Virus record (IMG/VR): IMGVR_UViG_3300035698_013720
Location: 1 to 26,251 of that record
Origin: a virus
DNA: 26,251 nucleotides
Direction: 5' to 3' (one strand)
The notes under the pieces were generated by a model. It saw nothing but the letters and a program-made list of their open reading frames with translations, had not been told where the DNA came from and ran no database searches. Of this stretch, positions 3,686 through 7,082 are shown one piece after another; positions within the stretch are counted from its first letter, which is position 1, and each line of letters starts with the position of its first letter. The translations under genes and the position numbers were made by a program.

Positions 3686-3698
3686 TTTAAGGGGTGCC

Positions 3699-3770
3699 AC
3701 AGAACGTTTGATTAAATTTAGCACCCCTAGTGTACAAAAAACAACCAACATACCTCACCGTGCATTTAAA
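3699..3770. repeat. 72-bp direct repeat, copy 2
   Basis: Identical to 2290-2361. Here the left flank gives a perfect 8-bp stem: AGGGGTGC (3690-3697) with GCACCCCT (3721-3728), with a 23-base loop. It separates the fourth and fifth tiny membrane genes. In copy 1 the flank differs but the ability to pair is kept, which hints at a selected structure. Confidence 0.92.
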
Positions 3771-3804
3771 GTGGAAATAGAGGTATTCTAGAGGAGGGGC
3801 TAAG

Positions 3805-3893: not shown

Positions 3894-3923
3894 TTGACAA
3901 GAGGTGAATTTTGATGTTATATT
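3894..3923 (+). promoter_or_regulatory. Sigma70-like promoter of the lysozyme unit
   Basis: TTGACA (3894-3899), 18 bases, TATATT (3918-3923); TTATAT at 17 bases is an equal alternative. Transcription should start near 3930, just before the folded leader. Confidence 0.75.
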
Positions 3924-3942
3924 AGAAGTGTAAATATACGTT

Positions 3943-3998
3943 AGGGGCTCTGGATAGCTGGCTCAACAAGCCGAGTGATGATTCTAGGGCTCCTTTTT
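3943..3998 (+). ncRNA. Leader RNA hairpin with terminator-like end, before lysozyme
   Basis: AGGGGCTCTGGA (3943-3954) can pair with TCTAGGGCTCCT (3983-3994), giving 12 bp with three G-U pairs. It encloses a small hairpin GGCT-caaca-AGCC (3960-3972) and a larger internal loop on the 3' side. Five U residues follow at 3994-3998. With a promoter about 13 bases upstream, this is a self-contained short RNA or an attenuator 30 bases before the lysozyme start. If the terminator works, lysozyme expression needs read-through or antitermination. Confidence 0.6.
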
Positions 3999-4027
3999 CA
4001 TAACCAAGGGGAGAGGGAGTTGAGCAA

Positions 4028-4546
4028 ATGAAGATTTCAGATTTTGGCCTGGAGCTGATTAAAGCGGCGGAGGGCCTGGAGCTAAAAGCGTATGCCGATA
4101 CAGGTGGAGTGCCCACAATTGGTTATGGCCATACATCTGGGGTGCGCCTTGGGCAAAAAACAACACAAAAACAGGCCGAGTTCTTTCTTAAAACGGATGT
4201 AGAGTCTGCTGAGGCCACGGTTGACAAGTTTGTTAAGGTGCCAATTAAGCAACATGAGTTTGATGCACTAGTCTCATTCGTATTCAACGTTGGAATTGGT
4301 CAGTTCATGAAATCGACCCTCTTACGTAAATTAAATAAAGAGGATCGGATTGGGGCGGTCAATGAGTTAGATCGGTGGATTTATGATAATGGTCGGATTC
4401 TTTTGTGGCAAATCAAGAGACGTGCTGTCGAGCGGGAGTTATTCAAAACGGGAGTACTTAACCTTGTTTTATTTGATGGCCCTAACACAAATCAAAAAGA
4501 GTTGACAAAGTGGATTGAGTCTGTTATACTAGGAACCATAGCGTGA
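4028..4546 (+). CDS. Endolysin, T4-type lysozyme (GH24)
   Basis: A 172-aa predicted muramidase that cleaves the N-acetylmuramic acid/N-acetylglucosamine bond of peptidoglycan. The N-terminal motif holds the GH24 catalytic set: Glu15 (AAEGLELKAY), Asp24 and Thr30 (TIGYGHT). A conserved core (ALVSFVFNVGIGQF) and a C-terminal RRAVERELF helix follow. There is no signal peptide or signal-anchor helix, so it would need a holin to reach the cell wall. GGGAGAGGGAG lies upstream of the ATG. It sits with early/replication genes on the plus strand, more than 13 kb from the late holin, much as T7 lysozyme sits among early genes. Five tiny membrane genes lie directly upstream. Confidence 0.93.
   Translation: MKISDFGLELIKAAEGLELKAYADTGGVPTIGYGHTSGVRLGQKTTQKQAEFFLKTDVESAEATVDKFVKVPIKQHEFDALVSFVFNVGIGQFMKSTLLRKLNKEDRIGAVNELDRWIYDNGRILLWQIKRRAVERELFKTGVLNLVLFDGPNTNQKELTKWIESVILGTIA
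4502..4530 (+). promoter_or_regulatory. Sigma70-like promoter inside the end of the lysozyme gene
   Basis: TTGACA (4502-4507), 17 bases, TATACT (4525-4530, five of six). It would start a transcript near 4537 for the 82-aa gene and the SSB gene, letting SSB be made regardless of the terminator-like leader before lysozyme. Confidence 0.65.
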
Positions 4547-4566: not shown

Positions 4567-4815
4567 ATGATTGATAAACTATTTGTATATTATAACAACC
4601 GCATTACCTCAACACTGATGCTAATGCGAAGTAAGGATTTGGTGCGGGATGAGAAACTGGCCCACCTTGAGGCAATCTTAAAGGATTTACAACACCTCCA
4701 ATACACAATCGAGACGGAATCATCCATGATCAGTATGGAGAAGCTCGAGGAGATGAAGGATGTTGCCGACGCCGACGGGGCTGTTGAGGCAAAGAAGACA
4801 AGTAAAAAGAACTGA
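4567..4815 (+). CDS. Hypothetical protein, 82 aa, upstream of SSB
   Basis: A probably helical soluble protein with a charged middle (residues 21-40), a Gln/Leu-rich helix and a basic C-terminal tail (VEAKKTSKKN). AGAGGAGAG lies about 9-13 bases upstream of the ATG. The next gene, SSB, starts 13 bases after the stop with its own ribosome binding site, so the two are likely co-transcribed from the promoter at 4502. I do not recognise the family. Confidence 0.75.
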   Translation: MIDKLFVYYNNRITSTLMLMRSKDLVRDEKLAHLEAILKDLQHLQYTIETESSMISMEKLEEMKDVADADGAVEAKKTSKKN

Positions 4816-4828
4816 GGAGAAAATAAAA

Positions 4829-5392
4829 ATGACGGATAAAACAAACAAATTCCCAACCTTTAAAGCCGAAGGACTTCTTTTTTGGCCACAATTTGTGAAG
4901 CCAGATGAGATGACTGGAGCATACGACATTCAAATTGTAGTTGCGGATGAGGTTGCCGATGAATTGGCTGATCGCGGATTGCGGCCCGTTGCTGCACGGG
5001 ATGGGACTTTACGAGAGATGAACGGCCACCCTGGATTGAGAGTCTTCAGACTACGTAAGAACGCACTGATGGCGGATAAGGTTACCGAGAGGCCCCCTCC
5101 TAGTGTGTTTGTAACTACAGATGCCGGTGAGCTTGTGCCCTTTGGGGGTAAAATCGGCAATGGGTCTGAAGGTGAGGTTATCTTCTCCCTCTTTGAATAT
5201 GACAACAAGTTCGGCAAAGGTATTTCACACTCTCTGCAGACAGTTGTTATCTCTAAGTTGGTGGAATATAAATCTGTGTCAATTGAGGATCGACTTAAAG
5301 AGGCTGTGTCGATTGGCAAGAAGAGCTCTTCAAAGATTAAAGCTAAGGCGAGTAAAGTGGATGTGGAGTCCGATGAGGACCAGCCATTTTAG
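4829..5392 (+). CDS. Single-stranded DNA-binding protein, T7 gp2.5-like
   Basis: A 187-aa protein predicted to coat single-stranded DNA and to contact polymerase and primase-helicase. Early residues (TFKAEGLLFWPQFVKPDE...YDIQIVV) and the core (VFRLRKNA, IGNGSEGEVIFSLFEYDNKFGKG) follow the OB-fold pattern of T7 gp2.5-like proteins. After a Ser/Lys-rich linker it ends in an acidic tail, ESDEDQPF, with a terminal Phe as in gp2.5 and bacterial SSBs; this tail is the usual protein-interaction hook. The start was set at 4829 (GAGGAG 9 bases upstream) rather than an earlier in-frame ATG inside the previous gene. T7 gp2.5 is 232 aa, so this is a shorter version. Confidence 0.85.
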   Translation: MTDKTNKFPTFKAEGLLFWPQFVKPDEMTGAYDIQIVVADEVADELADRGLRPVAARDGTLREMNGHPGLRVFRLRKNALMADKVTERPPPSVFVTTDAGELVPFGGKIGNGSEGEVIFSLFEYDNKFGKGISHSLQTVVISKLVEYKSVSIEDRLKEAVSIGKKSSSKIKAKASKVDVESDEDQPF

Positions 5393-5403
5393 CTAAGAGA
5401 CAT

Positions 5404-5505
5404 GGTGTAAGAGGTGCCGTCCGAGCACCAACCGGCCCCCCATCTATCCCGGACTCCCCCGGGCTGGGCCGGCTTCCAATTAAATCCAGGAACTCTACAC
5501 CCTGG
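5404..5505 (+). ncRNA. Candidate structured RNA, possible pseudoknot, after SSB gene
   Basis: The stretch folds by eye into a compact unit. A closing helix joins GGTGTA+GAG (5404-5413, one bulged A) to CTCTACACC (5493-5501). Inside are hairpin GGTGC/GCACC (5413-5417/5425-5429) and a long hairpin CCGGCCC/GGGCCGG (5432-5438/5466-5472) topped by CCCGG/CCGGG (5448-5452/5459-5463). CCAGG (5486-5490) can also pair with CCTGG (5501-5505), which would enclose the 3' strand of the closing helix and make an H-type pseudoknot. An intrinsic terminator follows directly. It has no coding frame of note and starts 12 bases after the SSB stop. It may be a processed 3' UTR RNA. I match it to no known family. 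Confidence 0.55.
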
Positions 5506-5511
5506 TTAAAT

Positions 5512-5540
5512 AGCCCCGGAGGTCAACTTCGGGGTTTATT
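5512..5540 (+). terminator. Intrinsic terminator after SSB and structured RNA
   Basis: CCCCGGAG (5514-5521) pairs with CTTCGGGG (5527-5534) around a 5-base loop, an 8-bp stem with one G-U, followed by TTTATTTAT. An A-rich stretch (TTAAATAG) precedes it. It would end the lysozyme/82-aa/SSB transcript. Confidence 0.85.
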
Positions 5541-5613
5541 TATGTCTTAAAATGTAAAGCTGGAGTTTACCTTTTCACACTTATTTGCACTATTTCGGAA
5601 ATTGCTATGGCTA

Positions 5614-5663: not shown

Positions 5664-5693
5664 TTGACAAACGGAAAGAAATAATGCTATAAT
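5664..5693 (+). promoter_or_regulatory. Consensus sigma70 promoter of the PnuC-like unit
   Basis: TTGACA (5664-5669), 18 bases, TATAAT (5688-5693): both hexamers are perfect, the best match in the window. Transcription should start near 5700. Confidence 0.88.
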
Positions 5694-5699
5694 AAGAGT

Positions 5700-5785
5700 A
5701 CGGACCGTTAGGGTCTATGGCTTGCCCCAGGCAGGCGTCAGACCAGAGTAAGAGCCCTCAAGGATAAAAACTTGGGGGCTTCTTT
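5700..5785 (+). ncRNA. Short structured leader RNA ending in an intrinsic terminator
   Basis: The predicted transcript is about 85 bases long. GGTCT (5712-5716) pairs with AGACC (5740-5744). After a 3x3 internal loop, GCTTGCC (5720-5726) pairs with GGCAGGC (5730-5736). GACC (5703-5706) could instead pair with GGTC (5712-5715). A terminator follows: AGCCCTCAAG (5753-5762) with CTTGGGGGCT (5771-5780), 10 bp with one G-U, then TCTTT. GGGTCT (5711-5716) could also pair with AGAgCCC (5751-5757), which would break the terminator. That is the logic of an attenuator or riboswitch for the downstream gene. Pairings were read by eye; no ligand class is identified. Confidence 0.6.
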
Positions 5786-5809
5786 ATGCGCACAGGGAAG
5801 AGGTATACC

Positions 5810-6061
5810 ATGCTTGAGATAATCATCTTCGCATTTGGATTGCTGGGGAGCATTCTCATTATTTATAAGAATAGGTGGGGATTTATATCCTATTGCATTC
5901 ACAGTGTGGCTTGGGGGATTTCATCGTATGCTGATGCCGAGTATGGAGCCTTGGCGACATGTGTCCTATTCTTTGCCTTTGACGTATATGGCTTCTATCG
6001 GTGGAGTTCTACATACAAGCCCTTGGCTTCTATCGGTGGCGTTTTACATAAAAGCTCTTGA
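5810..6061 (+). CDS. Half-length PnuC-like membrane protein, three TM helices
   Basis: An 83-aa inner-membrane protein with three hydrophobic helices (about residues 2-18, 22-40 and 47-65). The stretch NRWGFISYCIHSVAWG, then SYADAEYGALATC, then FDVYGFYRW has the Trp/Gly and YADA...YGFYRW pattern of PnuC-type nicotinamide riboside transporters, which are normally over twice as long. A single triple-helix unit would have to pair with another copy, as SemiSWEETs do. The start was placed at 5810 (GGGAAGAGG upstream); an ATG at 5786 lies in the terminator's U-run. The C-terminus after RW is changed by a 35-bp duplication (5990-6059). Function as an NAD-precursor channel is an inference from family resemblance. 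Confidence 0.65.
   Translation: MLEIIIFAFGLLGSILIIYKNRWGFISYCIHSVAWGISSYADAEYGALATCVLFFAFDVYGFYRWSSTYKPLASIGGVLHKSS
5990..6059. repeat. 35-bp tandem duplication at the end of the PnuC-like gene
   Basis: Units 5990-6024 and 6025-6059 match at 31 of 35 bases. Because 35 is not a multiple of three, the second unit is read in another frame and gives a new tail (ASIGGVLHKSS). In the original frame the second unit would read GFYRWRFT and stop. The second unit ends exactly where the -35 box TTGACT of the next promoter begins (6058). Confidence 0.9.
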
Positions 6062-6086
6062 CTTCTTCCGTAAGACGTAGTACACT
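6058..6086 (+). promoter_or_regulatory. Sigma70-like promoter overlapping the PnuC-like stop codon
   Basis: TTGACT (6058-6063), 17 bases, TACACT (6081-6086). The stop codon TGA of the PnuC-like gene is part of the -35 box. GTACACTATAA here recurs at about 6229. Confidence 0.6.
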
Positions 6087-6092
6087 ATAAAT

Positions 6093-6187
6093 AGGCAGAA
6101 AAGTAAGACGCCCAAATCCTCCCTAGGATAATCCGGCGCAGCTGTCTAGGAACCTCGAGGGGCCCTCTCACAAGGAGGGCCTTTCTT
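6093..6187 (+). ncRNA. Short leader RNA with intrinsic terminator
   Basis: The predicted transcript is about 95 bases and codes for nothing I can see. ATCCT (6116-6120) can pair with AGGAT (6125-6129), or CCTAG (6122-6126) with CTAGG (6146-6150); these are mutually exclusive. The terminator is GGCCCTCT (6161-6168) with GGAGGGCC (6174-6181), followed by TTTCTT. The upstream fold is less clear than in the other leaders, but the terminator is strong. No gene starts within 160 bases after it, so this may be a stand-alone small RNA. Confidence 0.6.
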
Positions 6188-6258
6188 GTATCTAAATGGT
6201 CACTATTATGCACAAATTCACTCCTTTTGTACACTATAATCAGCATTAACCTTTTTTA

Positions 6259-6800: not shown

Positions 6801-7082
6801 ATGTATAAGGGTCATCAAAACTATCCACACAGGACGATGTGCGACATCTTAGGTGAGATGCGAGCTATAATGGCGACGAATGGTTTGTTCACACACACGT
6901 ATGTCAATGCCGTGATGAGTAGCTTAATTGAGGAAGCGCAAGCTGCAGGGAACCGAATGGAGGCCGGACTATATTATAAGAGAGATATAGGGAGGCTACA
7001 CACTCGGCGTGCACGCTTGCTGAAGAAGGTTGCTGCCCTAGAGGCAAAGCTGCCTGAGGAGGACCGTGATACTGGCTTTTAA
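6801..7082 (+). CDS. Conserved phage-type hypothetical protein, 93 aa
   Basis: AAGGAGG is 7 bases before the ATG. The pattern NYPHRTMCDILGEMR followed by LIEEAQAAGNRMEAGLYYKRD is one I associate with small uncharacterised proteins of many T7-like and other phages, with a helical hairpin and a C-terminal Arg/Lys-rich coiled coil (residues 60-85). No catalytic motif is visible. Its stop overlaps by four bases the stop of the opposite-strand nuclease gene. Confidence 0.75.
   Translation: MYKGHQNYPHRTMCDILGEMRAIMATNGLFTHTYVNAVMSSLIEEAQAAGNRMEAGLYYKRDIGRLHTRRARLLKKVAALEAKLPEEDRDTGF

Follow-up and report, generated by a model that had tools for sequence, protein, structure and literature searches.

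Small RNAs derived from the 3' UTRs of bacterial mRNAs (SdhX and others) lie between a stop codon and a terminator (PMC9438474). The gp32 operator of the phages T4 and RB69 is located in the 5' leader, where it covers the ribosome-binding site; in T4 gene 32 a pseudoknot precedes the start codon by 67 nt, and an A+U-rich stretch extends over the ribosome-binding site (PMC535899; PMC3014915). A third arrangement is that of the intrinsic (Rho-independent) terminator accompanied by stem-loops in the 3' UTR.

The element described here follows the single-stranded DNA-binding protein gene (ssb) of a phage and can be compared with all three. It shares position and length (~100-140 nt) with the SdhX-type RNAs, but its U tract is interrupted and its processing and targets are hypothetical. 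The likeness to the gene 32 operator is a possible pseudoknot in a phage SSB mRNA; however, here the pseudoknot is doubtful and the structure is found 3' of the stop codon instead of upstream of the gene. With the intrinsic terminators it has in common the operon end, a GC-rich hairpin with a T-rich tract and extra stems upstream, although the upstream structure is larger (a multibranch of ~100 nt) and its protective role is putative. A plausible description of the locus is a structured 3' UTR of the ordinary kind that ends in a terminator and may be functional.

The ssb operon and its predicted structured end

The window, i.e., the whole stretch of DNA that was analysed, is a virus record of 26,251 bases with the gene set of a T7-like podovirus, including a gp2.5-like SSB, a RecE-like exonuclease, a family A DNA polymerase, a primase/helicase, an endolysin, a tail fibre and internal virion proteins. 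The closest matches of its DNA polymerase, among IMG/VR relatives, have 33-38% identity. Searches of IMG/VR for homologues of the SSB, DNA polymerase, helicase and internal virion protein retrieved distant phages only (polymerase identity of at most 36-38%), with the exception of L062, the sole near-identical contig found (7.5 kb, 99% identity over the 299 residues compared), which contains structural genes only.

Since the SSB retains the acidic tail at its C-terminus (...DEDQPF), including the terminal F, the stop codon of ssb looks genuine. The sole open frame across the element has no start codon 3' of this stop and reads through the terminator, so that the element does not look coding. 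A programmed frameshift from ssb was considered and rejected by inspection: the -1 frame is open to 5550, but CCATTTTAG differs from the canonical slippery heptamers, and the terminal F of the SSB is normal. A tRNA/tmRNA search found none. On the plus strand there is no promoter-like site between 4530 and 5664, where the next one appears, and a terminator stem is found at 5512-5536; from this we infer that the element belongs to the ssb transcript, as the 3' UTR of the operon.

Table 1. Features of the ssb operon and of the element at its end (positions in the window).
Feature	Position	Strand	Remarks
Sigma70-type promoter-like site	4502-4530	+	TTGACA-17-TATACT, extended -10; 11/12 consensus matches; precedes ORF82 and ssb
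ORF82 (82 aa)	4567-4815	+	first gene of the ssb operon; no family matched
ssb	4829-5392	+	gp2.5-like ssDNA-binding protein; phrog_112, E 1.2e-8; SBB_T7, E 1.6e-4 (below cut-off)
Closing helix P1, 9 bp	5404-5409/5496-5501 and 5411-5413/5493-5495	+	A5410 bulged
Hairpin 1, GGTGC/GCACC	5413-5417/5425-5429 (5413-5429)	+	predicted fold
Stacked arm (5432-5472), outer 7 bp, CCGGCCC/GGGCCGG	5432-5438/5466-5472	+	asymmetric internal loop above
Stacked arm, inner 5 bp, CCCGG/CCGGG	5448-5452/5459-5463	+	predicted fold
5-bp helix CCAGG/CCTGG	5486-5490/5501-5505	+	loop contains the 3' strand of P1 (5493-5501)
Intrinsic terminator	5508-5545	+	stem 5512-5536, full stem 5508-5541; interrupted U tract TTTATTTAT

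The features of this end are collected in Table 1. The initial annotation had described a compact structured RNA, apparently non-coding, and this is supported: the 9-bp closing helix with its bulged A, the two internal hairpins (including the stacked 7+5 bp arm), the 5-bp helix that loops around the 3' strand of the closing helix and the terminator directly behind are all present where they had been placed. G5413 belongs both to hairpin 1 and, as its last base, to P1. The terminator consists of a GC-rich hairpin, 3' of the stop codon, with a T-rich tract immediately behind it (tail TATTTATGTC after the stem 5512-5536). The AT-leaning surroundings were also borne out, with a GC content of 0.61 in the element (vs. 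0.46) and 0.40-0.45 in the flanks, the GC rise being limited to the element. Overall, the observation was largely right and its interpretation inflated.

The reading that we favour, with about an even chance of being correct, takes the element for a structured 3' UTR of the ssb operon mRNA, specific to this lineage, whose stems and terminator probably slow down 3'-5' exonucleases. Transcription would probably begin near 4530, pass through ORF82 and ssb and end at the terminator (5508-5545). The ~100-110 nt from the ssb stop to the terminator would fold into GC-rich stem-loops, closed part of the time by the 9-bp helix, and these stems together with the terminator would probably block 3'-5' exonucleases and so make the ssb mRNA, or a 3' fragment of it, longer-lived. 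If real, this would be one more lytic phage that provides the mRNA of a replication gene with a stable structured end, perhaps releasing a small RNA.

Folding stability and conservation

An advantage over shuffled sequences was found for the 153-nt stretch that includes the terminator (-60.7 kcal/mol, z -3.15, 0 of 200 shuffles as good) but was modest without it. Since the RNA alone reaches only z -2.28 (5404-5510) or -1.97 (5393-5515), the terminator itself accounts for part of the excess. When the plus strand of the window was scanned with 110-nt tiles, whose z values are noisy (50 shuffles per tile), the tile at 5400 was 17th of 655 (z -2.7) and the one at 5401 sixth (z -3.42), so that the values without terminator go from about -2 to -3.4. 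Both tiles are also among the most stable of the window by energy. The density of pairing had been considered unusual; the helices and the GC content are real, but z was below -3 in 10 of the 655 tiles. The element is real as a GC-rich, well-folded spacer, yet it is no outlier within the window. For transcripts starting at 5340 or later, the predicted pairing probability was ~1 for hairpin 1 and ~0.9 for the outer part of P1; that of P1 decreased to 0.24 in 5240-5545 and to ~0.01 in the whole ssb mRNA, predictions for such long RNAs being unreliable.

No Rfam family fits the element. The scan proposed in the initial annotation gave none above cut-off at gathering or at lax thresholds, and the best sub-threshold scores (against gathering cut-offs) were those of anti-hemB (20.5/49.5), NsiR1 (21.4/39) and Yfr10 (17.7/43), to which the 3' terminator-type hairpin aligns, the likeness resting mostly on the terminator. 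No second copy was found by BLAST against GenBank phages and plasmids or by searching IMG/VR and the GTDB genomes for DNA patterns (P1; hairpin 1 with the arm; the P1 3' strand joined to CCTGG; the stacked arm). The pattern hits that were folded differ in layout and appear to have matched by chance. A single-sequence covariance model, run on 94 related loci and 10 pattern-hit loci, matched only itself. Because records very close to that of the window were possibly excluded from the searches, the lack of near-identical copies means little; the lack of divergent ones is more telling, within the limits of searches by exact seeds. In four relatives with an SSB upstream of a related polymerase (L018, L027, L030 and L033) the next frame opens with an ATG at the SSB stop or close to it, and such a spacer is therefore not shared by these phages in general. 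As far as is visible in these sequences, the element is most likely lineage-specific.

These results bear on the possibility that the spacer is GC-rich by chance and has no function besides the terminator, which we consider rather unlikely but worth weighing. A z of about -2 for the RNA alone speaks for it, and so do the shuffles: a 9-bp helix like P1, spanning at least 70 nt and interrupted by no more than one bulge, appeared in 4.3% of them (and in 3.8% of the window tiles), and an A-B-A-B layout of helices in 16%, as strong as the observed one or stronger in 4.9% (by simple enumeration). The failure to find homologues and the four relatives without such a spacer point in the same direction. 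Against it, the fold including the terminator beats all 200 shuffles, and a non-coding GC-rich insert of 118 nt is, in our judgement, somewhat unusual for a compact phage genome.

Small RNA, pseudoknot and other roles

In a second alternative, an endonuclease would cut the ssb mRNA and set free a small RNA from its 3' UTR, which would end at the terminator and pair with other mRNAs through C-rich loops. The succession of stop codon, ~110 nt and intrinsic terminator is the layout reviewed in PMC9438474, with the element lying between the two and having no promoter of its own, and the C-rich loops GACUCCCCC and CCCAUCUAU could in principle bind G-rich ribosome-binding sites. However, compared with 35 of the phage's own translation starts, the C-rich loop shows no complementarity beyond chance: its best duplex (-12.4 kcal/mol) equals the median obtained for the best duplex among 35 random sites. 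The interrupted U tract (UUUAUUUAU) would also be poor for Hfq, and the searches gave no homologous RNA with a shared seed. Taken together, we regard such a small RNA as unlikely.

The initial annotation had gone further and combined P1 with the CCAGG/CCTGG helix into an H-type pseudoknot. Indeed, every helix of the A-B-A-B layout is present, which speaks for a tertiary RNA of a new class (a ribozyme, an exonuclease-resistant element or an element binding a ligand or SSB). However, C5501 is common to both helices and the linker between the P1 3' strand and CCTGG is of 0 nt (2-3 nt on the other side), so that the full 9+5 bp pseudoknot cannot form and one of 9+4 bp looks strained. On geometric grounds, with both helices together 9 of the 12 loop nt would be paired in an almost full-turn helix, which also appears strained. 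The two helices compete in energy and are favoured as alternatives: of the nested folds, the one with P1 has -41.6 kcal/mol vs. -38.5 for the one with the CCAGG hairpin, and adding slightly more 3' sequence switches the minimum to the latter. With a layout that is, in addition, not rare in shuffles, the pseudoknot is undemonstrated, and on the models CCAGG/CCTGG more probably replaces P1 than forms a true tertiary element with it. The lesson is that reading helices by eye from a GC-rich spacer led to too strong a claim for the pseudoknot.

The functions that had been attached to this structure fare no better. No Rfam class, ribozymes included, matched even at E up to 10, which leaves the self-cleaving or nuclease-resistant element without a match. 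The SSB feedback site is unsupported by analogy: T4-type SSB operators sit 5' of the gene, in the leader (T4/RB69), whereas the element comes after the stop codon, and a site like that of T4 gene 32 appears unlikely. We thus consider a tertiary RNA of a new class very unlikely. Equally improbable, in our opinion, is a new lineage-specific phage RNA that would switch between the P1-closed multibranch and the CCAGG hairpin, or a strained pseudoknot, and so control the decay or the 3' processing of the ssb mRNA. Lastly, that the inverted repeats act as DNA, e.g., to signal single-strand initiation or replication close to ssb, is most improbable: GC-rich hairpins do fold on the minus strand too (-45.6 kcal/mol, z -1.70), but z is better on the plus strand, which also carries the terminator, and the AT-rich repeats at 2492-2900 are a better origin candidate.

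Other candidate RNA structures and repeats

Several other regions of the window contain promoter-like sites followed by structured RNA. At 5664-5810 a perfect-consensus promoter (TTGACA-18-TATAAT, with an extended -10) precedes a structured leader (z -3.08); the second hairpin of this leader resembles a terminator, and downstream of the leader there is a short pnuC-like NMN transporter ORF (5810-6061). Judging by its sequence, the leader appears to be under attenuation and may sense a ligand; it did not match the NAD or other riboswitch models of Rfam. Further on, at 6058-6190, a promoter-like site is followed by a folded RNA of ~100 nt and a strong terminator (6157-6185), without any ORF, and appears to be a better candidate than the ssb element for a free-standing phage small RNA. 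These neighbouring promoter-RNA-terminator units are RNA candidates at least as good as the ssb element. A 35-nt tandem duplication (5989-6058, 89% identity) ends the pnuC-like ORF and reaches the next promoter-like site. Just upstream of the endolysin gene, at 3894-4028, another promoter-like site leads into a long hairpin that resembles a terminator (3943-3994, z -2.79), and the string CGTTAGGG is common to this region and to the 5664 leader.

The region 2492-2900, a candidate replication origin by its sequence features, is AT-rich and non-coding and contains tandem TTACTTAC repeats, with tiles down to z about -4. Two perfect 59-nt copies of a ATAACTAT-type repeat are found at 2667-2725 and 2726-2784. 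There is also an intergenic direct repeat of 108 nt (87% identity) at 2277-2384 and 3686-3793.

A different situation is seen just after ssb in other T7-like phages (L005:6409-6528, L006:6181-6300, L012:6172-6291; also L002 and L003), where a GIY-YIG-like frame overlaps the end of the gene. The RNA just 3' of the ssb stop folds far better than its shuffles in these phages (z -2.2 to -6.1), with two helix arms nearly unchanged between them, a fold that may reflect coding constraint or a regulatory hairpin. Within the window, the best z of the plus-strand scan (-4.43) belongs to 6921-7030, inside a 93-aa ORF (6801-7082).
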